DNA of 32,509 nucleotides, taken from the IMG/VR virus record IMGVR_UViG_3300009285_001858, positions 1 to 32,509 of that record. One strand, 5' to 3'. Numbering within the stretch: position 1 is the first letter of the stretch; every line of letters starts with the position of its first letter. The notes under the pieces were generated by a model. It ran no database searches. It was given only the letters and a program-made list of their open reading frames with translations, and was not told the DNA's origin. The stretch is from a virus. Below, piece after piece: positions 4,369 through 20,715 of the stretch. Both the position numbers and the translations under genes were made by a program.

Positions 4369-5940
4369 ATGAAACAGCTCAACTTGTGGAAGAGCCAGCA
4401 GGAGTTCTTCAGTTGGGGGCCGAGCCCCATCATGTACATGGGTGGGGTTGGTAGTGGGAAGAGTTTTGCGCTTGTGCTCAAGATGCTTTACCTGTTGGAT
4501 ACCTACCCCGGCTCTCGCGGTCTTATTGCCAGACAACGATTCAACCAGCTCAAGAAGACTACCAGCGCGACACTATGGCAACTACTTCCCCGTGACAAGG
4601 TAGCCCGTCGCAACGATAACGAAGGATCTATCACCCTCACCAACGGGTCACAGTTGCTTCTAGTCCATCTCGACTCCGCTGACTCTCTCTCTAACCTCAA
4701 ATCTCTCGAAATCAACTTCGCGGCAGTAGACCAGACAGAGGACGTGACTGCCGAAGCGTGGGACACGCTTTATGAACGTGTCGGCCGATGGTCAGGTGCA
4801 TTACGGCGTGGTGGCTGGCCCATCGATTGGCCTTACAAGAATAGGCTCGGGCAGAACATTCCCCCGCGCTATCTCTTCGGCAACTGCTACTCCCCGGGCT
4901 ATGACCATTGGATCACTCAGCGCTTTTGGGAGCATGGAACAGAGCGGGATAAGTATCGGGCACAAGGATATAAGGTTGTCAGTGGGTCTACGCGGGATAA
5001 TCTCGCACTGTCAGAGGAGTATGTTGCTGACCGTATTGCAATGGGGCCAGAGTATGTAAGAAGGTTCGTAGATGCTACTGACTGGGGCGCGCATGAAGGG
5101 CGCATCTTCGACATTGACGCTCAGTCCATTCTTGAACCTACGCAGGAGATTGTAGATCGCATCAGAAGGACGATGAGACTTCATCGAGTCTATGATCATG
5201 GAGAAGCGAGTCCCTCTGCCATGATTTGGTATGCCACTGACCAGTACCACAACATCTTCGTCTATCGAGAGTATATGCAGGCCGGACTGGTGGTCTCAGA
5301 GCATCGTCGCAATATCTACGATCTGAGCAAACTGGATAGTCCGAATGGGAACGTGCCGCCGCCTTATTATTCGAACCTTGCTGACCCCGCAATCATGAGC
5401 AAGAATCGGGGCCGCACTCTCACCAGCAAACCCACGTGGTCAGTGGCTGATGAGTTCGCGGATCGGCGAGTGATGGATCCTGAGACAGCCATTTACTTTC
5501 GTAAGGCTGAAAATGACGAGGCGATGACCATCAACCGCGTACGAGAGTATTTACGGCCAGATAAGCGACACGCCAATCCGCTTACTGGCAAGCGTGGCGC
5601 ACCCCGTATCTACTTCCTCCGTAGGACGGCCGAGTATCCCTATGGTTGCTTCGAGACACTGGTAGATATCAGGTCAGCGAAGCGGAAGGAAGTAGGGGTT
5701 AAGCCAGACGGTACTAAGCTCTTTGGCGATGAGCGGGATGATAAGGTGAGGGACCATTTGCTGGACTGTATCCGCTATCTTGTCGGCACTCGGCCTGCTC
5801 TTGGACCTAAGGCTGAGGCTCCTCCGGCTGATCCAGGTACACTACGTATAGACGACTATTACAAGATTACAGCAATGGAGAATAGTCGAGCGGCAATGAG
5901 AGCGAAGCGAGATTATAGAGGAAGTCCATATGGCTATTAA
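4369..5940 (+). CDS. terL: Terminase large subunit
   Basis: The 523-residue packaging motor couples ATP hydrolysis to DNA translocation into the prohead and cuts the concatemer. Walker A is GGVGSGKS at residues 25-32. The Walker B strand with catalytic Glu is FAAVDQTED at 117-125. The C-terminal RNase H-fold nuclease shows Asp276 (VYDHGEASPSA), Asp339 (LADPA) and the DDKVRDHLLD region with Asp462 and Asp466, as expected for two-metal catalysis. Length and domain order are normal for the family. The C-terminal 40 residues are basic and probably contact the portal. The gene's end overlaps the following amidase-like gene by 11 bases. Confidence 0.95.
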   Translation: MKQLNLWKSQQEFFSWGPSPIMYMGGVGSGKSFALVLKMLYLLDTYPGSRGLIARQRFNQLKKTTSATLWQLLPRDKVARRNDNEGSITLTNGSQLLLVHLDSADSLSNLKSLEINFAAVDQTEDVTAEAWDTLYERVGRWSGALRRGGWPIDWPYKNRLGQNIPPRYLFGNCYSPGYDHWITQRFWEHGTERDKYRAQGYKVVSGSTRDNLALSEEYVADRIAMGPEYVRRFVDATDWGAHEGRIFDIDAQSILEPTQEIVDRIRRTMRLHRVYDHGEASPSAMIWYATDQYHNIFVYREYMQAGLVVSEHRRNIYDLSKLDSPNGNVPPPYYSNLADPAIMSKNRGRTLTSKPTWSVADEFADRRVMDPETAIYFRKAENDEAMTINRVREYLRPDKRHANPLTGKRGAPRIYFLRRTAEYPYGCFETLVDIRSAKRKEVGVKPDGTKLFGDERDDKVRDHLLDCIRYLVGTRPALGPKAEAPPADPGTLRIDDYYKITAMENSRAAMRAKRDYRGSPYGY

Positions 5941-6487
5941 ACCAATTTATGTGCAAGCCGGCGATACCTTCTTCACCCGCAGTAACAGCCTTCTCGGAAT
6001 GGCAATTAGGTTGGCAGAGAGAGACCCGGGCGAGGAAGCTGTATGGGCAAATCATACAGGAGTAGTTGTGGAGAGCGGGTGGATCGGCGGCAATACATTT
6101 CCACAAGCTGTCGTAGTTGAGGCACTGTGGAAGACTCGCAAAGGGCCGCTGAAGGTAAATGGGATTGAGGTACGAGTCTTTGGACCAGCAGGTAAGCTGT
6201 CTGCTAAAGAACTAGCATTATTCAGATCAGAGGCTGATAAATACGTAGGCGACACCTATGGTTGGTGGAAACTTGGGTTCCATCTCATTGACAGGCTGGC
6301 ATTCAAAGGCAAGAAAGTTGTTAGCAGACTGCTTTTTCTAGACAAGCGCCCCATTTGTTCGTATCTTGCAGCTAAAGTTAATGCCTCTGTAGATTTGTTC
6401 TTTGGCATGTTGCCTGAAGTAGCCACCCCCGATGAAATGGTCGATTTTTGTGAGACCAACCCCGACTACTGGGTGGAGAGAGTCTAA
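5930..6487 (+). CDS. Permuted papain-fold amidase-like protein (YiiX/NlpC-like)
   Basis: The 185-residue protein opens with GDTFFTRSNSLLGMAIRLA, followed by NHTGVVVE with His42, and has its Cys later at 143 (RPICSYLA). This His-before-Cys order marks the circularly permuted NlpC/P60 (YiiX/YaeF) group of papain-like enzymes, where Cys and His are the catalytic pair. Typical reactions are amide cleavage in peptidoglycan peptides or lipids. There is no signal peptide. AGAGGAAG precedes the ATG inside the end of TerL. Its place between TerL and portal suggests a virion-associated hydrolase or an accessory lysis enzyme. Which one cannot be decided here. Confidence 0.7.
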   Translation: MAIKPIYVQAGDTFFTRSNSLLGMAIRLAERDPGEEAVWANHTGVVVESGWIGGNTFPQAVVVEALWKTRKGPLKVNGIEVRVFGPAGKLSAKELALFRSEADKYVGDTYGWWKLGFHLIDRLAFKGKKVVSRLLFLDKRPICSYLAAKVNASVDLFFGMLPEVATPDEMVDFCETNPDYWVERV

Positions 6488-12573: not shown

Positions 12574-13647
12574 ATGGCTCTAGCCAGTGCGTCTTATACC
12601 TATTCGACGATTGCTGCTCTTGCTCTCGACAAGCTGTCCGACAAGATTGCCGACGCGATTTCTACATCGAACGCGGCATTCTACTTCTATAAGAAGAAGG
12701 GCAACTGGGAGGGTGTGAAGAGCGGCGGTCGTCAGCTCCGCAAGTCGGTGCTATACCAGCTTCAGACCGTTCGTCCGCTGGGTAGCTTCGGCGTAGTCAA
12801 TGTCAACCCCGTGGATAGCCACACCTCAGTCTACTTTGATTGGGTTCAGGCCGCAGTCCCCGTTTCCTTCTCCGACATGGAGGAGTTCCAGACGAGTGGC
12901 TCCGAGTCTATCGAGACTATCGTCAAGGCCAAGTTCTCGCAGGCCAAGGCGTCTCTTGATGACTTCTTCACCCGCGCACTGCTTCGCGGTCAGGCGGACA
13001 TCGACACTACCTCACTTACCACGGCTCTCACGTCTCCGCTGGATGGTTCGGTCTTCATTGACCCATTCACGAAGCTGATTGCTTTCGATCCTACCGCCGC
13101 CCTCACGGTTGGTGGTGTGGATCAGTCCACGAATAGCTGGTGGCAGAATCAGTTGTATGATTCGGCTGCTTCCACTCTCGCGGCTTTCCTTGCAGAGCTT
13201 CGGACTCTTCATGTCCGCACTCAGCGCGGCGGCGGCGGGAAGTTCCGCTCCCCCGACTTCCACATCGTTGACGAGCGGACGTATAACGTCTATGAGAAGG
13301 CCCTAGCACTTACTCATCGTAACCCTAGCTATCAGAAAGCTGACCTTCCCTTCGAGAACGTTGAGTTCAAGGGTTCGCCAGTTATCCCCGATCAGCTCGT
13401 GCCCGACGTGAAGAACGGCTCGACTACGATCACTGACGGTAGCTGGTTCATGCTCAACAGCGAGTTCATGGGCTTCACCTTTGACAACGGTAAGAGCTTC
13501 AAACTCGGCGCGAACGTGCGTCCGAACAACCAGCTCGTCACCACGGCGCTCATGCCTGTTCGCGGCGCTCACTGGACCAATAACCGCCGGAAGCTTGGCG
13601 TTATGGGTGACATCGACCTGACTACGCTCGAAGCGGCAACCACGTAA
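12574..13647 (+). CDS. Major capsid protein (HK97-fold candidate)
   Basis: The 357-residue protein follows the scaffold and precedes a decoration-like protein, in a region set off by a long leader and a terminator, as expected for the most abundant virion protein. It has a helical N-arm (ALALDKLSDKIADAISTS), a beta-rich E-loop-like part (SVLYQLQTVRPLG), a central helix (FSQAKASLDDFFTRALLRGQ), and an ending ALMPVRGAHWTNNRRKLGVMGDI. That overall order fits HK97-fold capsids. The N terminus shows no propeptide. The fold is inferred, not proven. Confidence 0.85.
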   Translation: MALASASYTYSTIAALALDKLSDKIADAISTSNAAFYFYKKKGNWEGVKSGGRQLRKSVLYQLQTVRPLGSFGVVNVNPVDSHTSVYFDWVQAAVPVSFSDMEEFQTSGSESIETIVKAKFSQAKASLDDFFTRALLRGQADIDTTSLTTALTSPLDGSVFIDPFTKLIAFDPTAALTVGGVDQSTNSWWQNQLYDSAASTLAAFLAELRTLHVRTQRGGGGKFRSPDFHIVDERTYNVYEKALALTHRNPSYQKADLPFENVEFKGSPVIPDQLVPDVKNGSTTITDGSWFMLNSEFMGFTFDNGKSFKLGANVRPNNQLVTTALMPVRGAHWTNNRRKLGVMGDIDLTTLEAATT

Positions 13648-13737
13648 GCAAGTTAACTAACTGGAATCGTGGCGACACGGTTTTAGAGAGTTGGTCATTG
13701 CGACTGTCTCTCTCACCAGTATCGAAAGGAAAGAACA

Positions 13738-14175
13738 ATGCTGATTCCCCATGTAGTGCAGACTGAGGCTGATAAGGTCTTTGTGAACGTCCTCAATAAC
13801 CAGACGGTTTCGGTTGCTGACGGTGACGTGCTGGTGTGGAACACTTCCACTCCTGATGGCGTGCGTACCACGCAGGCGGCTGCGGGAACCCTCAGCCTCT
13901 TCGTTGGTATCGCGGATGGCGCAATCGCGGCTTCAGCCTACGGTCTCGCACAGGCGTATGGTTATAAGTCGGCTGCGCTCATCAGCAATGACACGGCGAC
14001 TGCGGTTGTGGCTGGCGACATTCTCCAGCCCATCGCGGCTCAGGACCATCTCTATCGGTACGCTTCCGGTGGCGATGTGGCGTTCAGCACGAATGCGAAC
14101 ATTTACGCGGCTGAAGCAGTGGCGACTGCCGCAACGGCTTCGGCTACGTCAGGCGTCTTCATCCGCGCCCTGTAG
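13738..14175 (+). CDS. Probable capsid decoration/stabilization protein
   Basis: The 145-residue protein comes directly after the capsid gene and before a strong terminator, so it shares high late expression. It is beta-rich and small-residue-rich (VFVNVLNNQTVSVADGDVLV, LFVGIADGAIAASAYG), and Ala is abundant throughout. That composition is common for outer decoration or cement proteins. AAGGAAA precedes the ATG. No family can be assigned by eye. Confidence 0.65.
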   Translation: MLIPHVVQTEADKVFVNVLNNQTVSVADGDVLVWNTSTPDGVRTTQAAAGTLSLFVGIADGAIAASAYGLAQAYGYKSAALISNDTATAVVAGDILQPIAAQDHLYRYASGGDVAFSTNANIYAAEAVATAATASATSGVFIRAL

Positions 14176-14202
14176 TTTTAACAACTTACAGGTCTCGTAC
14201 CT

Positions 14203-14238
14203 GCCCTCCAGGGGCTCACTTCCCTGGGGGGCGTTTTT
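14203..14238 (+). terminator. Intrinsic terminator closing the capsid module
   Basis: GCCCTCCAGGG (14203-14213) and CCCTGGGGGGC (14222-14232) form an 11-bp stem with one G-U pair and an 8-base loop, followed by G and five T (14234-14238). It is the strongest terminator in the window. It should separate the abundant capsid transcripts from the modification cassette that begins at 14266. Confidence 0.9.
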
Positions 14239-14265: not shown

Positions 14266-15048
14266 ATGCCAGTTTACCCTCGGGTGACTATCGTAACTCC
14301 GTCATTCCAGCAGGGGAAGTATATCAAAGCCACAATCGATAGTGTGTTGGCTCAGAATTACCCCGATATAGAGTATATCGTTATGGACGGTGGGTCCACA
14401 GACGGTACTATAGACATTCTGAAGTCCTATGGCAATCGCATTATTTGGCACTCGGCCTCCGATAAAGGGCAGTCTGACGCAATTAACGCCGGAATGCGGC
14501 TAGCCAGTGGGCTGATAGTATCCTGGCTCAACTCGGACGATACGTTGCTTCCTGGGGCAGTAGAGGCTGTCGTAGGGGCATTACAGGCGAACCCACAGGC
14601 GGGGATTGTCTATGGGGACACCCTCTTTACTGGACCGGACGGGACACCGATGTTCCCCACCGACACCCACCCTTTCAACTATAGAACTATAGTTGATACT
14701 TGCCACAACCCTATCCCCCAGCCCTCCGCCTTCATTCGGCGAGAAGCTTGGGAACCGTTGGATGAGTCTTTAACTTACTTCCTAGACTGGGACCTGTGGT
14801 TACGCATTGGGGCACGGTGGCCAATACTCTACGTGCCAGAAGTGTGGTCCACGTACCGTGTGCATTCCGAGTCCAAGACTGGAAGACTAAATTACCCTGT
14901 GGGGGAATTAAAGTACATCTATCGCAAAAATTTTCCGGGGAGTAAAATACCCCCCGTGGTATATGAGCGGATGGCCGAGTATAGTAAAGCAAATGGGCAG
15001 TGGGCGAAGACACTAATGTTGAGGGGCAGAGCATGTCTAGGGAAATGA
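14266..15048 (+). CDS. GT2-family glycosyltransferase
   Basis: The 260-residue enzyme transfers a sugar from an activated nucleotide donor. It has the GT-A fold of family 2: a start strand PRVTIVTPSFQQGKYIKATI, the motif DGGSTDGT at residues 41-48, and NSDD at 89-92 in place of the classical DxD metal site. A later acceptor-side stretch reads PSAFIRREAWE then YFLDWDLWLR. No membrane segment is present, so it is a soluble cytoplasmic enzyme. GGAGAG precedes the ATG. It is the first gene of the cassette, 28 bases after the terminator. The acceptor is unknown. Confidence 0.9.
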   Translation: MPVYPRVTIVTPSFQQGKYIKATIDSVLAQNYPDIEYIVMDGGSTDGTIDILKSYGNRIIWHSASDKGQSDAINAGMRLASGLIVSWLNSDDTLLPGAVEAVVGALQANPQAGIVYGDTLFTGPDGTPMFPTDTHPFNYRTIVDTCHNPIPQPSAFIRREAWEPLDESLTYFLDWDLWLRIGARWPILYVPEVWSTYRVHSESKTGRLNYPVGELKYIYRKNFPGSKIPPVVYERMAEYSKANGQWAKTLMLRGRACLGK

Positions 15049-15287
15049 AGTATTTGGTCTATAGGTGTTTTAACTGCGGACGACTGATTACCAAATTGGA
15101 GCTGGAAGCGACTTGGGATAGGGCGGAGAAGTCAGGGGCAGAGCAAAAGGGCATATGCTCTTGTGGTGGAGGACAGCTTCGACCATCAAATGCGAAGCTG
15201 TGGGAAGAGCTGCTGCTACCTCGGGTATGGCGGCTGGCATTCAAAGAAGTTTTTCTACCCTGGCTACGGACGAAGTTCAATGGCTAA
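15033..15287 (+). CDS. Small zinc-ribbon protein in the modification cassette
   Basis: The 84-residue protein has CFNCGRLI and, about 25 residues later, CSCGGGQL, a four-cysteine zinc-ribbon pattern, followed by a helical basic segment (LWEELLLPRVWRLAFKE). Comparable small zinc-ribbon proteins occur beside glycosyltransferase and methyltransferase genes in other phages. Their role is unknown. I chose ATG at 15033 (GAGGGG 7 bases upstream) over a GTG at 15000. It overlaps both neighbours. Confidence 0.7.
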   Translation: MSREMKYLVYRCFNCGRLITKLELEATWDRAEKSGAEQKGICSCGGGQLRPSNAKLWEELLLPRVWRLAFKEVFLPWLRTKFNG

Positions 15288-15825
15288 GGCGCTTATGGTT
15301 GGCAGCGGCTTCTTCCCCCCTGAGAGGAAGATTCAACCTATTGGGGTCGAGTTGCCAGAACCTGAGTGGACCACGCTGGACATCAATCCAGAGTGTAAGC
15401 CTGATTATCAGTTTGACCTTAACCACATTGAGCAGCAAGATCCAGGAAAATTCTATCCACTACCGTTCAAGGATGAAACCTTCAATGAAATTCACATTTA
15501 CCAAACCCTCGAACATTTCGGACGGCAGGGAGACTTCAAGGGCTTCTTCCGCACCTTCCGCGAATTCTGGCGCATCCTCAAGCCCGGCGGTGAGCTATAT
15601 GGCGACACCCCCTCACTTACTAGTCCCTGGCTCTGGGGCGACCCGGGACACGCGCGCGTCATCCTTCCCCAAACCCTTCTCTTCCTGACCCGCAAATGTT
15701 ACGAGGGGCTTGGTAAGAATACTAGCACGGACTACCGCCGCTTCGTGGACCCGTGCTGGTGGGTGATTCTGCATAGTGCGGAGGAAGAGGGACGACACGG
15801 GTTCGTGCTGAGGAAGGCGCAGTGA
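15280..15825 (+). CDS. Class I SAM-dependent methyltransferase
   Basis: The 181-residue enzyme has the late half of the class I methyltransferase signature: LPFKDETFNEIHIYQTLEHF, equivalent to motifs II-III of the Methyltransf_11 type, then FREFWRILKPGGELYGDTP. The N-terminal SAM loop is reduced (VGSG instead of GxGxG), which is common in phage forms. I chose ATG at 15280 (MAKALMVGSG) because the frame upstream overlaps the preceding gene. The stop overlaps the next GTG by 4 bases (GTGA). The substrate may be a sugar or a protein. The neighbours make a sugar or glycopeptide plausible. Confidence 0.8.
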   Translation: MAKALMVGSGFFPPERKIQPIGVELPEPEWTTLDINPECKPDYQFDLNHIEQQDPGKFYPLPFKDETFNEIHIYQTLEHFGRQGDFKGFFRTFREFWRILKPGGELYGDTPSLTSPWLWGDPGHARVILPQTLLFLTRKCYEGLGKNTSTDYRRFVDPCWWVILHSAEEEGRHGFVLRKAQ

Positions 15826-16655
15826 TCCAGCTACATTTCGAGGTTTGCGGTGTATGCGACGCGAAATGTGTATTCTGCTGCTACTCATCTAAGGAAAATT
15901 CAAAGACGATCAAACGCCCGATGCCAATGCCCCTCTTCAAGAAGATCATTGATGAGGCAGCAACCATCCCGCAGATCAACGAAGTGGCATTCGCCGGTCT
16001 CGCAGAGCCAATGCTCGACCCCTTCATCATTGAGCGCATTGCCTACACTAAGCAAGTCTGCCCTGATAAGCGGATGGAGATGTACACCAACGGGGTGCGG
16101 CTTACCTCTGAACGTTTTGAGGCAGTGAAGTCCGCTGGCCTAGACGTGATGGTCATCTCTCTGAATGCCATAAATGCTTCACAGCATGAAGCGATTATGG
16201 GATTGAAAGGGAAGTATGATTTGGTCTGCGCTAACGCCGACTACGCGGTTACTCATCGTGGGTCCATGCTTATCACGGTTAGAGCAGTAGTCACTGGCGA
16301 CACCTTCACCCGCGCCGATGCCGACATCTTCCTTCGTCGCTGGGGGGTATTCAAGTGGGGAACGGGGTATGGCTCACTCACTTCTGAGCGCAATTGGGCG
16401 GGGGAGAACCGAACCACTGCTGAGTTCGATCCCAATTCATGCTGCAAGCGAGCGCTGGAGCAGATTAGTGTACATAGAGACGGTCGCGTTAATCTTTGTT
16501 GTTATGATCCTTTGAGCAAGTACAGCTTCGGCGACTTGAAAACCCAAACCATCCGAGAGATATACAACTCTGTTGGCTACGTCGAATTCCGTAAGTGGCA
16601 CTGCGATAACCAAGCGGCTAAGCATCCACTTTGCCGGATCTGCACGAGGGTGTGA
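15822..16655 (+). CDS. Radical SAM/SPASM-like enzyme 1
   Basis: The 277-residue protein has the radical SAM iron-sulfur motif Cys12-x3-Cys16-x2-Cys19 (CDAKCVFC), which holds the [4Fe-4S] cluster that cleaves S-adenosylmethionine to a 5'-deoxyadenosyl radical. Its C-terminal third shows more cysteines in SPASM-like positions: SCCKRA, LCCYDP, and a final LCRICTR, with GDLKTQTIREIYNS between. SPASM enzymes commonly modify peptides or sugar-like substrates. It starts with GTG overlapping the methyltransferase stop. It is clearly paralogous to the enzyme at 17777-18613. Confidence 0.85.
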   Translation: MIQLHFEVCGVCDAKCVFCCYSSKENSKTIKRPMPMPLFKKIIDEAATIPQINEVAFAGLAEPMLDPFIIERIAYTKQVCPDKRMEMYTNGVRLTSERFEAVKSAGLDVMVISLNAINASQHEAIMGLKGKYDLVCANADYAVTHRGSMLITVRAVVTGDTFTRADADIFLRRWGVFKWGTGYGSLTSERNWAGENRTTAEFDPNSCCKRALEQISVHRDGRVNLCCYDPLSKYSFGDLKTQTIREIYNSVGYVEFRKWHCDNQAAKHPLCRICTRV

Positions 16656-16888
16656 TGAGAAAACTTGAAGTCACTTGGATGGACAGTTGCTCCTGTACTA
16701 AATCTTGGTCAACAAGGGAAGAGGCATTGGAGTGGGCAGAAGAAGGAGTGATTGCTCAAACAGTAGGCTACTTCGTTTCGGAGAGTAAGGATTGGCTGAC
16801 TCTTGCTGCCTCTTATCATGAGGATCAGTATGGTGGCCTATGGAACATACCTAAGGGTTGCATCGTACGGCGACGGAGATTAAAGTGA
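16655..16888 (+). CDS. 77-residue hypothetical protein
   Basis: Start and stop overlap both neighbours (TGATG upstream, GTGA downstream), and GAGGG precedes the ATG. The pattern VTWMDSCSC, Trp at intervals, VGYFVSESKDWLTLAASY and IPKGCIV matches a widespread kind of short phage protein of unknown function. It lies between the first radical SAM gene and a glycosyltransferase. It does not look like a RiPP precursor: there is no leader-like helix followed by a Cys/Ser/Thr-rich core. Confidence 0.7.
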   Translation: MRKLEVTWMDSCSCTKSWSTREEALEWAEEGVIAQTVGYFVSESKDWLTLAASYHEDQYGGLWNIPKGCIVRRRRLK

Positions 16889-17589
16889 CTGACCATCTAC
16901 TGATAGCTACAGCCGCCGACTGTCAAAAGGGCTATTATCCTGACCTACAGGCTCAAGTGATAGCTGCTGGCATAGACTTCCTCTACCAGCCCATCGTCCC
17001 TTTCTCGTGGAAGAAGCTTATTCAATGGGAGCTGGACATGGCCCGTTCTTACCCTAATGCTCTTATCGCTTTCTGCGATAGTTGGGATATGCTTTACTTC
17101 GGCTCCCGTAAGGAGTTCGAGGATGTCGTGGGCGCACAGCCGCTCCTGCTCCATGCAGAGAAAGCCTGCTGGCCCCATCCTGAAAAAGCGGCACGTTATG
17201 CCTCATTCTCTTCTCCCTGGAAGTATGTCAATGGTACTGGCCCCGCTGGACTCGGGTCCGCAATTGCAGAGGCAATAGAGTATGGAATGGCCCACTTCCC
17301 AATCACTGATGACTCCGCCGATGTCCACGACCTATCCAAAGACAATGATCAACGTTTCTTCACCGATCTCTATCTCAGTGGGTATGGTGCATTGGATACC
17401 CAATGCCGTCTCTCGCAGTCATTGGTTCAAGCCGCGAATGGCGATTTTGCGGTAAAGGACGGCAGGCTGATGAACAAGATTACTGGTAGTCAGCCACTGT
17501 TCGTCCATGCTAATGGAGCGAGTGCGATGATTGGGTGGAAGGGGCTGATGGATATGTTGAAGGACTATCGACCGGAGCGACCGTGGTGA
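16885..17589 (+). CDS. PLOD/collagen-type glycosyltransferase-like protein
   Basis: The 234-residue protein has a GT-A-like layout: YPNALIAFCDSWDMLYFGS with Asp65 and Asp68 as metal/nucleotide site, LLLHAEKACWPHPEKA, KYVNGTGPAGLG and DQRFFTDLYLSG, and a late His-containing QPLFVHANGAS. This pattern resembles the glycosyltransferase domain of procollagen-lysine glycosyltransferases and related bacterial and viral enzymes, which add sugar to hydroxylated lysine. GTG at 16885 overlaps the previous stop and has GGAG in front. An upstream TTG at 16858 is less likely. The acceptor is unknown. Confidence 0.7.
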   Translation: MTDHLLIATAADCQKGYYPDLQAQVIAAGIDFLYQPIVPFSWKKLIQWELDMARSYPNALIAFCDSWDMLYFGSRKEFEDVVGAQPLLLHAEKACWPHPEKAARYASFSSPWKYVNGTGPAGLGSAIAEAIEYGMAHFPITDDSADVHDLSKDNDQRFFTDLYLSGYGALDTQCRLSQSLVQAANGDFAVKDGRLMNKITGSQPLFVHANGASAMIGWKGLMDMLKDYRPERPW

Positions 17590-17783
17590 CACCCAAATTT
17601 AAACCGATATTCTATCTAGAACGTGAGCCAAACGGCGACACTTGGCTCCGACGCGGGACCTGCAAAGGAGTGCGTATTCTGCTGGCTACTGGTTCCGAAC
17701 CGTTTGATTGGGACGATGCCTGTAAGCTGATTGATGTCTGTAACGAGTTAGAAAAGACATATGATGAGATCACAGAATGGTAG
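17586..17783 (+). CDS. 65-residue hypothetical protein
   Basis: GTG at 17586 forms a 4-base overlap with the preceding stop. GTG at 17583 is an alternative. GGAG lies just upstream. The product has a beta-looking first half (PIFYLEREPNGDTWLRRG, then VRILLATG) and an acidic helical end (WDDACKLIDVCNELEKTYDE). No family is recognised. Its last 7 bases overlap the second radical SAM gene, so it repeats the arrangement of a small gene next to a radical SAM gene in the cassette. Confidence 0.6.
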   Translation: MTPKFKPIFYLEREPNGDTWLRRGTCKGVRILLATGSEPFDWDDACKLIDVCNELEKTYDEITEW

Positions 17784-18613
17784 AGCCGACTATCGAAGTA
17801 GACATTGAGACCAGCACTACCTGTTCGGCCGCTTGCCGGTTCTGCCCCTACCCCAAGTACGCTAGCTGGCGGGCTGGCGAGACTATGGATATGGAGCTGT
17901 TCAAGAAGATTATTGACGAGCTAGTTACCATTCCACAAATCCATGATGTCAGACTTAATGGTTTAAATGAACCGCTTCTGGATCGTCACCTTGACAAACG
18001 ATACGAATACATCGCGAGTAAGGGTAATCGCTTTACCACGACACTAACCACTCATGGCGTCTACCTCGTCCCAAAGCGTGTAGATTCTTTGGTAGCTGCC
18101 GGAGTCAAACACTTCATTATCAGCCTCAATGCTGCCACTCCTGAGCAGCATGAAGCCACAATGGGACTGAAGGGCAAGTTCGATATTGTGGTTGCCAACA
18201 TTCAGCACTGCATTGACCGTGGGCTGGATGTAGAGGTTCGTGCAGTTACCAATGACGATACCTTCAAATTATCTGAAGGTATGAGACTTGTTCGCCGCTG
18301 GGGTTGGAAGCGATACGGTGGTCATGTCAAGCTTATCCGCGAGTTGAACTGGGCTGGAGCCAACCGCACCATCCGCACCTTCGATGCCGACTCCTGCTGT
18401 GTGCGGGCGGTCTCCAATATCTTCATTCGCTGGGATGGGATCATAACCACCTGCTGCGTGGATCCTACTGGCGAGGGCTTTCAGTTTGGCGATCTGAAGA
18501 AGCAGACTGTCAGAGAAGCCTACAACTCCGAACTCTACACTAATTTCCGTGAGCAACACTCACTAAATAAAGCCGCACAGTTCCCCGTGTGTGCCACTTG
18601 CACCAGAGGTTGA
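17777..18613 (+). CDS. Radical SAM/SPASM-like enzyme 2
   Basis: The 278-residue enzyme has the Cys16-x3-Cys20-x2-Cys23 motif (CSAACRFC) and SPASM-like cysteines at SCCVRA, TCCVDP and VCATCTR. It shares several long identical strings with the enzyme at 15822-16655 (LFKKIIDE, TIPQI, ISLNA, QHEA, MGLKGK, NWAG-NRT), so one is a duplicate of the other. Differences in the early barrel (LNGLNEPLLDRHLD against FAGLAEPMLDPFII) suggest they act on different positions or substrates. ATG overlaps the end of the preceding small gene. Confidence 0.85.
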   Translation: MVEPTIEVDIETSTTCSAACRFCPYPKYASWRAGETMDMELFKKIIDELVTIPQIHDVRLNGLNEPLLDRHLDKRYEYIASKGNRFTTTLTTHGVYLVPKRVDSLVAAGVKHFIISLNAATPEQHEATMGLKGKFDIVVANIQHCIDRGLDVEVRAVTNDDTFKLSEGMRLVRRWGWKRYGGHVKLIRELNWAGANRTIRTFDADSCCVRAVSNIFIRWDGIITTCCVDPTGEGFQFGDLKKQTVREAYNSELYTNFREQHSLNKAAQFPVCATCTRG

Positions 18614-18615
18614 AT

Positions 18616-19350
18616 ATGAAGCCGCTTGAAGGTATGACCGCCATTCTCGTCTCCCCAACCTATGGCGGTGTTGATCCGCTCTGTGCCCAGTCTCTGCGGG
18701 TGGCAATGATGAGCGCTTCGTCACAGGGGCTACATTGGATTGGCGACGCTTCCAACGACCGCCTCGGCTATGGCTTCTCCCGCAACCTCTCAGCCGGGGT
18801 GCTGAGAAAGAATCCCGCTGCCGCTGATGGCATTGTGTGGGTAGATTCGGATATTCGTGTCCCCAATGACGCCATCATCCGCCTACTGACTACTGCTAAG
18901 ACTCACAGTCTGGACTTTGTCACTGGTGTCTACCACGCACGGGCAACGCCTTTCCTACCCGTCATCTACCACTGGGATGCTAAGGTAAGCAAGTACCTCC
19001 AATGCGTAACCTACCCCTCCAGCCAGATAATCTCTCTAGATGCCTGCGGCTTTGGCTTCGTCTGGACATCCTCCAAGCTTATCAACGCTATTGCCAACCT
19101 ACCCACCTTCAGCAAACGTGAGGGCTGGTTCCCTGACCGCCGCGATGTCGGTGGCTATGGCGAAGACATATCCTTCTGTTATCAAGCTAAGGAAACAGGC
19201 ATTCAGCTCTACGTAGATACCGGCATCCAAGTAGGCCACACTGCCGACCCACAAGTTATCTGGGAGGTAGACTTCCGAGCCCTCAATATCACTCTTGAAT
19301 CCAAAGAGATACAGTCGAGGCCGTTGGAGCCGAACTGGGGTAGTAAGTAA
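18616..19350 (+). CDS. GT-A glycosyltransferase-like protein
   Basis: The 244-residue protein starts with TAILVSPTYGGVDPLCAQS, has the metal-binding Asp-Ser-Asp at residues 77-79 (IVWVDSDIRVP), a conserved LDACGFGFVWTSSK, and YGEDISFCYQAKETG followed by LYVDTGIQVGHT, the usual catalytic and late strand motifs of phage and bacterial GT2-like enzymes. It is soluble. I chose ATG at 18616 (AGAGG before it). The longer ORF start is not supported. It follows the second radical SAM gene by 2 bases and ends the cassette. Confidence 0.8.
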   Translation: MKPLEGMTAILVSPTYGGVDPLCAQSLRVAMMSASSQGLHWIGDASNDRLGYGFSRNLSAGVLRKNPAAADGIVWVDSDIRVPNDAIIRLLTTAKTHSLDFVTGVYHARATPFLPVIYHWDAKVSKYLQCVTYPSSQIISLDACGFGFVWTSSKLINAIANLPTFSKREGWFPDRRDVGGYGEDISFCYQAKETGIQLYVDTGIQVGHTADPQVIWEVDFRALNITLESKEIQSRPLEPNWGSK

Positions 19351-19395: not shown

Positions 19396-19716
19396 ATGGC
19401 TAGAACCGCCCAAGCTAAGATTCGTAGATTTGCAGTGTTCGTTAAGGAACTGCGCAATAACCGCACTACTGCCACCGGACAGAAGTCCGAGGTATTTGTG
19501 CGTCGCCCCTATGACATCGTTGAGTACGATTGGTCCGATGGTCGGGCAAAGCAGACCTACATTCAGCCGAATGGTAGCTCACGTCCAACTACTACTCTAA
19601 CTGCCTCAACCCCTATCTATGGCAAGCGGACTCAGGCACAAGCTGAGGAAGTCTACGACGACTTGAAGATTTTCGACAAAGCCCCAGACTGGGATAAGTT
19701 TGGTATCTTAGGCTAG
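19396..19716 (+). CDS. Hypothetical basic protein
   Basis: The 106-residue protein starts behind AGGAGACC at a longer-than-usual distance. It is basic at the N terminus (KIRRFAVFVKELRNNR), then mixed with Thr-rich stretches. The C-terminal part is acidic and helical (AQAEEVYDDLKIFDKAPDW). No family is recognised. It is the first gene after the modification cassette and begins the tail and adhesin module. Confidence 0.65.
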   Translation: MARTAQAKIRRFAVFVKELRNNRTTATGQKSEVFVRRPYDIVEYDWSDGRAKQTYIQPNGSSRPTTTLTASTPIYGKRTQAQAEEVYDDLKIFDKAPDWDKFGILG

Positions 19717-19980: not shown

Positions 19981-20715
19981 GTGCGGCTAGCAGACTGGTT
20001 GTCAATCAGACTTAAGGCTTGGACTGCGACTGGTCCGAGCGGCCCCTTTGGCGGTCACGCTACTCTGACTGATGGGCTAGTCTCCTATTGGACATTGGAT
20101 GAGGCCAGCGGCACGCGGGCTGACTCTGTAGGGACGAATCATCTAACTGACAATAACACAGTCACTAGCGTTGCGGGCGTTTTCAATGATGCGGCAAGTT
20201 TTGTGGCGGCTAATAGTGAATATTTGAGTCATGTAGATGACGGCGCTGCGTTATCCATAGATGGAGATAAAACTTTCGCCGCTTGGGTATATCGAACAAC
20301 TGCTGGGGCCAACATGGCGATTGTGTCTCAAAGAACGTCCGGTAACGGCGCTTACCAGCTTTACTTTGATACTGCGGATAAACTTCATGCGTATATTACT
20401 GACTCTGTAGCAGGATTCTCTGAACCATCTATTACAACGTCGGTAGTAGCAGGAACGTGGAACTTCTGTGTCATGTGGTATGACTCCTCTGATAAGAAGC
20501 TTCGCGTTCAAATGAACGGTGGAACAATTGCGGCGGGCTCGGCACTGTCAAACGGGCCGGTTGCTAGTACGCAGGACTTTAATGTAGTAAGACTAGCCGG
20601 GTCAATTTATGGTAATGGAGCGGTTGATGAGCTTGGAATCTGGTCCCGCGTCCTCACCACCGATGAGCGCACCGACCTTTACAATGGCGGCGCTGGCCTC
20701 TTCTACGGTAGCTAA
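19981..20715 (+). CDS. LamG/concanavalin-like adhesin
   Basis: Most of the 244-residue protein is a LamG-type jelly roll: LVSYWTLDEASGTRADSVG, SEYLSHVD, DKTFAAWVYR, NGAYQLYFD, GTWNFCVMWYDSSDKKLRVQMNGG and VDELGIWSRVLTTDE. This Laminin_G_3 layout is used for carbohydrate or protein binding. It starts with GTG at 19981, with no strong ribosome-binding site. There is no signal peptide, as expected for a virion protein. It is probably a receptor-binding or decoration module on the tail or capsid. It ends overlapping the next ATG (TAATG). Confidence 0.8.
   Translation: MRLADWLSIRLKAWTATGPSGPFGGHATLTDGLVSYWTLDEASGTRADSVGTNHLTDNNTVTSVAGVFNDAASFVAANSEYLSHVDDGAALSIDGDKTFAAWVYRTTAGANMAIVSQRTSGNGAYQLYFDTADKLHAYITDSVAGFSEPSITTSVVAGTWNFCVMWYDSSDKKLRVQMNGGTIAAGSALSNGPVASTQDFNVVRLAGSIYGNGAVDELGIWSRVLTTDERTDLYNGGAGLFYGS

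Follow-up and report, generated by a model that had tools for sequence, protein, structure and literature searches.

The window analysed here is an IMG/VR virus record of 32509 bases (IMGVR_UViG_3300009285_001858), in which genes for the terminase, portal, major capsid protein (MCP) and tail-type proteins surround a cassette of radical S-adenosylmethionine (SAM), glycosyltransferase (GT) and methyltransferase (MT) genes. The nine genes of the cassette occupy positions 14266 to 19350, after the capsid and decoration genes and before the head–tail adaptor. When re-derived from the sequence, all nine frames are open on the + strand, and neighbouring genes overlap by 1–16 bases at seven junctions out of eight (16, 8, 4, 1, 4, 4, 7); the sole exception is a 2-base gap between the second radical SAM gene and the last GT gene. 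The sequence-only reading of this locus, which had described nine tightly packed genes on one strand behind a terminator, is borne out in these respects.

The cassette opens with an accessory family 2 glycosyltransferase (GT2; 14266–15048; PF00535, E 1.2e-26), followed by a zinc-ribbon protein with a CxxC...CxC pattern (15033–15287) and a class I SAM-dependent MT (15280–15825), whose match to PF08241 is weak (E 1.5e-5). The first radical SAM enzyme (rSAM1; 15822–16655) and the second (rSAM2; 17777–18613) both match PF04055 and PF13186 and are BtrN/Twitch-like. Between them lie an orphan protein of 77 residues (small5; 16655–16888), an accessory single-domain GT of the PLOD/LH3 type (gene 6; 16885–17589; PF25342, E 1.5e-13) and an orphan of 65 residues (small7; 17586–17783). 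The last gene encodes a GT of GT-A fold resembling A197 and an LH3 domain (gene 9, hereafter the core GT-A; 18616–19350), assigned through phrog_1574 and its predicted fold. GTG start codons are used by rSAM1 (15822), the PLOD-like GT (16885) and small7 (17586). Neither small5 nor small7 matched a family in Pfam, PHROG or NCBIfam, and no homologue of either was found among the viral loci compared.

Upstream of the cassette, a small decoration-like capsid protein is encoded on the + strand at 13738–14175; its name rests on position and composition, no named family having been matched, and it is a candidate acceptor for modification. The interval between this gene and the cassette holds a terminator-like hairpin (14202–14233, + strand) of 13 pairs, nine of them G–C, followed by the T run TTTTTATGTT. 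From this hairpin to the first cassette gene, the + strand showed no sigma-70-like promoter; expression of the cassette may therefore depend on read-through or on a promoter type that the search did not cover. Downstream, another small + strand gene (19396–19716), identified by profile search, belongs to the conserved unit described below.

A conserved core in a variable slot

Searched one protein at a time, with rSAM2, the PLOD-like GT or the MT as query, viral contigs and isolates yielded no relatives, and profiles were required. A profile made from the two radical SAM copies reached one remote viral locus (L003, 25% identity) and 80 cellular loci at about 21–31% identity. The core GT-A found relatives in three complete Myoviridae sp. 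genomes from Manatee Spring (MW202711, MW202496 and MW202462), which carry a plain GT-A gene in the matching slot, from a small post-MCP gene to an adaptor-like gene. Scanning viral contigs with a GT-A profile yielded the loci L091–L094, in which radical SAM, MT and GT-A genes are adjacent and 39–51% identical to those of the window, and a radical SAM profile built from these loci recovered 29 viral loci. The gene-neighbourhood search that had been suggested for the cassette as a unit thus shows it to be shared by more than 20 further viral contigs.

In isolate phages the cassette was not found; radical SAM matches in this group are distant, with 30% identity at the most, and usually incomplete. 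The sole full-length match, MT835743 (MT835743.1, L276), is labelled bacteriophage and was set aside as it reads as a bacterial scaffold with ABC transporter and V-ATPase-like genes. A prophage search in which the MCP profile was run against 398 genomes from a single phylum returned only MCPs of the outer clade, with flanks too short for the presence of the cassette to be assessed. When some 990 genomes from three phyla were scanned with the radical SAM profile, all matches scored 124–183 bits; members of the viral family score far higher, and these matches are taken as cellular homologues. As a separate observation, homologues of the viral radical SAM family occur in 44 of 294 sampled genomes of the G005 phylum, a likely source group in cells.

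The conserved core consists of five families: the zinc ribbon, the MT, the radical SAM enzyme, the GT-A and the small protein at 19396–19716. The first four recur across loci in permuted gene order, and where flanking genes are present the unit usually lies 3' of the MCP and decoration genes and 5' of the adaptor. Minimal slots contain these four and the small terminal protein alone; in the window they are joined by a further radical SAM enzyme, the GT2, the PLOD-like GT and the two orphan small genes. The nine genes and three GTs of the earlier description are all present in the window, whereas the core comprises five genes and one GT, and the limits drawn at 14266 and 19350 leave out its fifth member. 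A profile built from three members of that small family detected 37 viral loci (about 26 distinct), nearly always directly downstream of a GT-A, MT or zinc-ribbon gene. MT relatives were 38–47% identical in the first alignment, and an alignment of 19 zinc-ribbon homologues shows three fully conserved cysteines and a fourth that is almost so. Homologues of the decoration protein lie directly 3' of the MCP gene and 5' of the cassette in most relatives with this region present.

The slot was further surveyed by a census based on an MCP profile scan, which gave 70 distinct loci, 42 of them evaluable owing to enough downstream sequence or an adaptor match. Because the window and contigs bearing the cassette supplied the sequences for the MCP profile, frequencies close to the query are inflated; the gene profiles may also miss diverged members. 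Among the 21 loci with MCP scores above 400 bits, the decoration gene was present in all 21, the GT-A in 20, the zinc ribbon in 19, the radical SAM gene in 17 and the MT in 15. The 15 loci scoring 240–400 bits held 14 GT-A, 12 MT and 11 decoration genes, with one radical SAM gene and one zinc ribbon, while the six loci below 240 bits held one GT-A and one decoration gene. Across all 42 loci, decoration protein and GT-A occurred together in 32, were jointly missing from six and disagreed in four, and these two are the most conserved members of the slot. From the counts by MCP score class, the GT-A and MT seem to have been in the slot earlier, with the radical SAM enzyme and zinc ribbon as an addition in one clade.

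Other genes come and go around the unit: large adhesin-like proteins or lysozyme-like genes in four loci (L091, L172, L185, L216), a polysaccharide pyruvyl transferase in the L218 slot and other methyltransferases in L210 and L248. Together with an endonuclease VII gene, the adhesin- and lysozyme-like genes are what would be expected if the slot between decoration protein and adaptor were a hotspot collecting unrelated metabolic cargo. This explanation is very improbable, as the five families recur across MCPs down to 29–38% identity and the catalytic residues of both the radical SAM enzyme and the GT-A are all kept.

Several neighbouring features deserve mention in their own right. By eye, a polysaccharide pyruvyl transferase-like frame and YkgJ-like Cys-cluster proteins can be recognised at L199:12069-12844 and 13640-13990 and at L183:3585-3911. 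In the window, the protein encoded at 5930–6487 between terL and the portal gene resembles an NlpC/P60-type hydrolase, again by eye, and a homologue adjoins the cassette in L091 and L176. The structural protein at 19981–20715, near the cassette, matches phrog_18503, a family of unknown function; its reading as a LamG-like, lectin-type protein is tentative.

The cassette genes follow the capsid lineage more loosely than the portal, terL and adaptor genes do. Pairwise identities of the portal, terL and adaptor proteins track MCP identity closely (Spearman 0.79, 0.74 and 0.74), with weaker tracking for the radical SAM enzyme (0.44), MT (0.34), GT-A (0.57), zinc ribbon (0.55) and decoration protein (0.42). 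Given the MCP, the identities of the radical SAM enzyme, MT and GT-A remain intercorrelated (partial r 0.36, 0.48, 0.24; p 0.003, 0.001, 0.038), a pattern that would suit transfer as a unit. The signal is not clean, since the radical SAM enzyme also correlates with the portal (partial r 0.51, p 0.001), and identity correlations are not a tree test.

BtrN-like radical SAM enzymes

The two radical SAM enzymes of the window are paralogues of 44% identity. In the numbering of rSAM2, the cysteines of the CX3CX2C radical SAM motif (C16, C20 and C23) are invariant in 33 of 33 viral proteins, as are C208, C226, C227, C272 and C275, and rSAM1 retains all cluster cysteines. The sequence-only reading had named an absence of the cluster ligands from most relatives as grounds for rejecting its proposal, and the family shows the opposite. 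The spacing of the auxiliary cluster, C-x17-C-x44-C-x2-C, is exact in 29 of the 33 proteins, and the remainder show 17/45/2 or 17/40/2. The 17/44/2 spacing is also that of BtrN, as taken from the alignment.

BtrN is the best match in both sequence and fold. The AlphaFold2 model of rSAM2 (mean predicted local distance difference test score, pLDDT, 93.8) superimposes best on BtrN (4m7t; Z 25.7, root-mean-square deviation (rmsd) 2.5 over 233 residues), followed by BlsE (Z 21.7) and SuiB (Z 21.2). The two enzymes share 18% identity over the structure, and the phage protein differs in an extra conserved cysteine, Cys227. BtrN is a Twitch enzyme that carries four cysteines on its auxiliary cluster and oxidises an aminocyclitol alcohol (PMC9012708). 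It acts as the 2-deoxy-scyllo-inosamine dehydrogenase of bacterial butirosin biosynthesis, whereas the phage enzyme is part of a viral cassette. The neighbourhoods of the cellular radical SAM relatives also contain polysaccharide genes; a pooled Pfam count (n = 74) gave nine cytidylyltransferases, seven GT2, five epimerases, five methyltransferases and 11 radical SAM proteins. Taken together, the BtrN-like features of sequence and model and the glycan-gene neighbours favour, though they do not prove, a sugar substrate.

The same enzymes could act in the maturation of a peptide or protein in the manner of ribosomally synthesized and post-translationally modified peptides (RiPPs), an alternative that the earlier reading had raised. 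On this view the radical SAM enzyme would act directly on a side chain, either in a virion protein or in a small one such as the zinc ribbon or the terminal protein, and the GT and MT would afterwards work at that same site. The SPASM profile matches, the fold similarity to SuiB, anSME and sactisynthases (Z 19–21) and the presence of a cassette-linked small protein in nearly all loci agree with such a role. In two-cluster SPASM peptide maturases, the cysteine motif ends in CX2CX5CX3C. This seven-cysteine full-SPASM motif is absent from rSAM2, which has five C-terminal cysteines only and ends three residues after C275. The SPASM label thus stands as far as the PF04055 and PF13186 matches go, but the domain is of the shorter, one-cluster Twitch type. 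In addition, the alignment of the terminal small protein shows no conserved cysteine, the zinc-ribbon cysteines suit metal binding, and glycan clusters house the cellular radical SAM relatives. The one-cluster layout and the BtrN top match weaken the peptide alternative, and we regard it, the chief rival reading, as unlikely, yet peptide maturases match the model well.

Glycosyltransferases and their known relatives

The core GT-A matches Pfam weakly and phrog_1574 at 1.6e-16, and a fold search with its AlphaFold2 model (pLDDT 92.5) assigns it a GT-A fold. Across 29 proteins, D77xD79, GFG, the ED pair (E183, D184) and H208 are invariant. Its fold matches are led by the second GT-like domain of LH3 (Z 19.3), STIV A197 (18.7) and R699 (17.1), followed by Mnn9 and COLGALT1. 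For gene 6 (234 residues), the best solved matches are mimivirus R699 and the catalytic GT domain of human LH3; the DXXD motif and gating Trp are retained (CDSWD and CWP, versus CDTYD and CWP in R699; PMC9546862), and PLOD-like relatives occur in L183 (two copies), L199 and L218. Since gene 6 resembles the catalytic domain of LH3 and R699 and the core GT-A resembles the second, the window, judged from sequence matches and predicted folds, holds relatives of both halves of this viral and animal protein-glycosylating enzyme as separate genes. Besides this separation, the window differs from the collagen glucosyltransferases LH3 and R699 in one changed poly-Asp residue and in lacking a collagen-like protein among the genes checked: a collagen-like substrate was discarded because the longest G-x-y run in 33 structural and cassette genes is 5.

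Radical SAM enzymes and glycosyltransferases are known from phage DNA-modification pathways, and hypermodification of the phage DNA by the GT, MT and radical SAM enzyme could be imagined on these grounds. T4 DNA glucosyltransferases are GT-B enzymes, though, while the cassette enzyme is of GT-A fold and nearest to protein GTs, and the cassette sits among virion genes, so that this explanation is extremely unlikely.

The GT2 has only weak matches in relatives (L259, 4e-5; L149, 0.008) and is otherwise specific to the window among the relatives found. Its weak PHROG matches to GtrB-like families, together with the sugar-type character of the enzymes, recall phage GTs of the Gtr type, which alter the host polysaccharide and thereby block superinfection or change the serotype. 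The cassette differs from Gtr-type O-antigen conversion in that family and hydrophobicity scans detected neither a membrane protein nor a flippase or lipid-carrier enzyme; in none of its proteins does a 19-residue stretch exceed 1.6. The unit is moreover conserved inside the late virion operon, and late expression would probably come too late for superinfection exclusion. Modification of the host surface is thus a rather improbable function.

A putative virion-glycan module

The cassette is probably a cytosolic virion-glycan module of uncultured phages of the short-tailed type, in which a sugar would be tailored and then attached to a virion protein, a reading that we hold with moderate confidence. 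It is favoured because of the location of the unit, its conservation and the protein-GT-like folds. The original proposal of a modified sugar on a virion protein accordingly stands as the best-supported one, given a unit conserved beside decoration and capsid genes. The genes, with their linkage, conservation, motifs and modelled folds, were observed, and we infer from them the nature of the sugar, the oxidation chemistry, the sequence of reactions and the acceptor.

As a working sequence of steps, the cassette would be co-expressed with the capsid genes late in infection. The radical SAM enzyme may oxidise or epimerise a hydroxyl-bearing sugar carbon by means of the 5'-deoxyadenosyl radical, the electron passing to the auxiliary [4Fe-4S] cluster as proposed for BtrN. 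The MT would O- or N-methylate the sugar, and its transfer to a virion protein would fall to the GT-A. The extra GTs of the window, GT2 and PLOD-like, could extend the glycan or add residues, the second radical SAM copy may act at another position, and the zinc ribbon and small terminal protein may serve as accessory or acceptor proteins.

Several observations weigh against this interpretation. No glycan has been seen. The radical SAM–MT pair lies directly upstream of terL in L182, L184 and L186 and not after the decoration gene. Fold likeness is no proof of sugar chemistry, as the peptide enzymes SuiB, anSME and SkfB also match at Z 19–21. In gene 6, the poly-Asp pair is reduced to a single Asp (N-D for D-D). 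The cassette contains no genes for making nucleotide sugars, and the donors would therefore have to come from the host. Finally, in the co-divergence test the link between decoration protein and GT-A is weak (partial r 0.28, p 0.016), and the decoration protein shows no correlation with the radical SAM enzyme or MT. The test gave no clear support for the decoration protein as sole acceptor.

Virion glycosylation has precedents in other viruses. The mycobacteriophages Che8, Corndog and Myrna carry glycans on capsid or tail proteins and, like the window, encode their own GTs (PMC12363180, PMC11256854, citing Freeman 2023). There the glycan is experimentally demonstrated, in contrast to the module described here, and the available text of these two sources does not mention a radical SAM enzyme, whereas the window carries a conserved five-gene unit in a structural operon. 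A viral parallel in fold to the core GT-A is A197 of STIV (165 residues superimposed at an rmsd of 2.4, with 18% identity; profile match E 0.0036), which is essential and possibly glycosylates the major coat protein B345, a glycosylated protein (PMC10551542). STIV is an archaeal tailless virus, and no radical SAM or MT partner is described in the accessible part of that source. Within the present survey, the remote locus L003 offers a variant solution (L003:4930-13461): between MCP and adaptor-like genes it carries two Maf/DUF115-like genes, NeuA- and NeuB-like genes, a radical SAM/SPASM gene and methyltransferases, as assigned by eye. It shares with the window the slot after the MCP, a radical SAM/SPASM enzyme of the same superfamily (25%) and a methyltransferase, but its Maf/DUF115-, NeuA- and NeuB-like genes replace the GT-A, zinc ribbon and small protein. 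By this assignment the gene set reads like a nonulosonic-acid virion cassette.

No description of a radical SAM enzyme linked to virion or capsid glycosylation was found in the open-access literature, preprints excluded. Glycosylation of phage virions is already known, and what is new, as far as we could find, is the conserved radical SAM component. The common assumption is that phage virions consist of bare protein; glycosylated ones are known from a few isolates. We tentatively propose, as a possibility and short of a probability, that the virions of a broad group of uncultured phages carry a virus-made sugar shaped by radical chemistry, that a BtrN-like radical SAM enzyme has a dedicated and conserved role in their assembly, and that capsid lineages swap the cassette among themselves, changing the glycan coat. 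The radical SAM enzyme, MT, GT-A, zinc ribbon and small protein provide a marker set for finding an isolate and a short, testable gene list. If the proposal is true, virion glycosylation would be a regular trait of a whole group of environmental phages, and radical SAM enzymes would join the repertoire of virion maturation.

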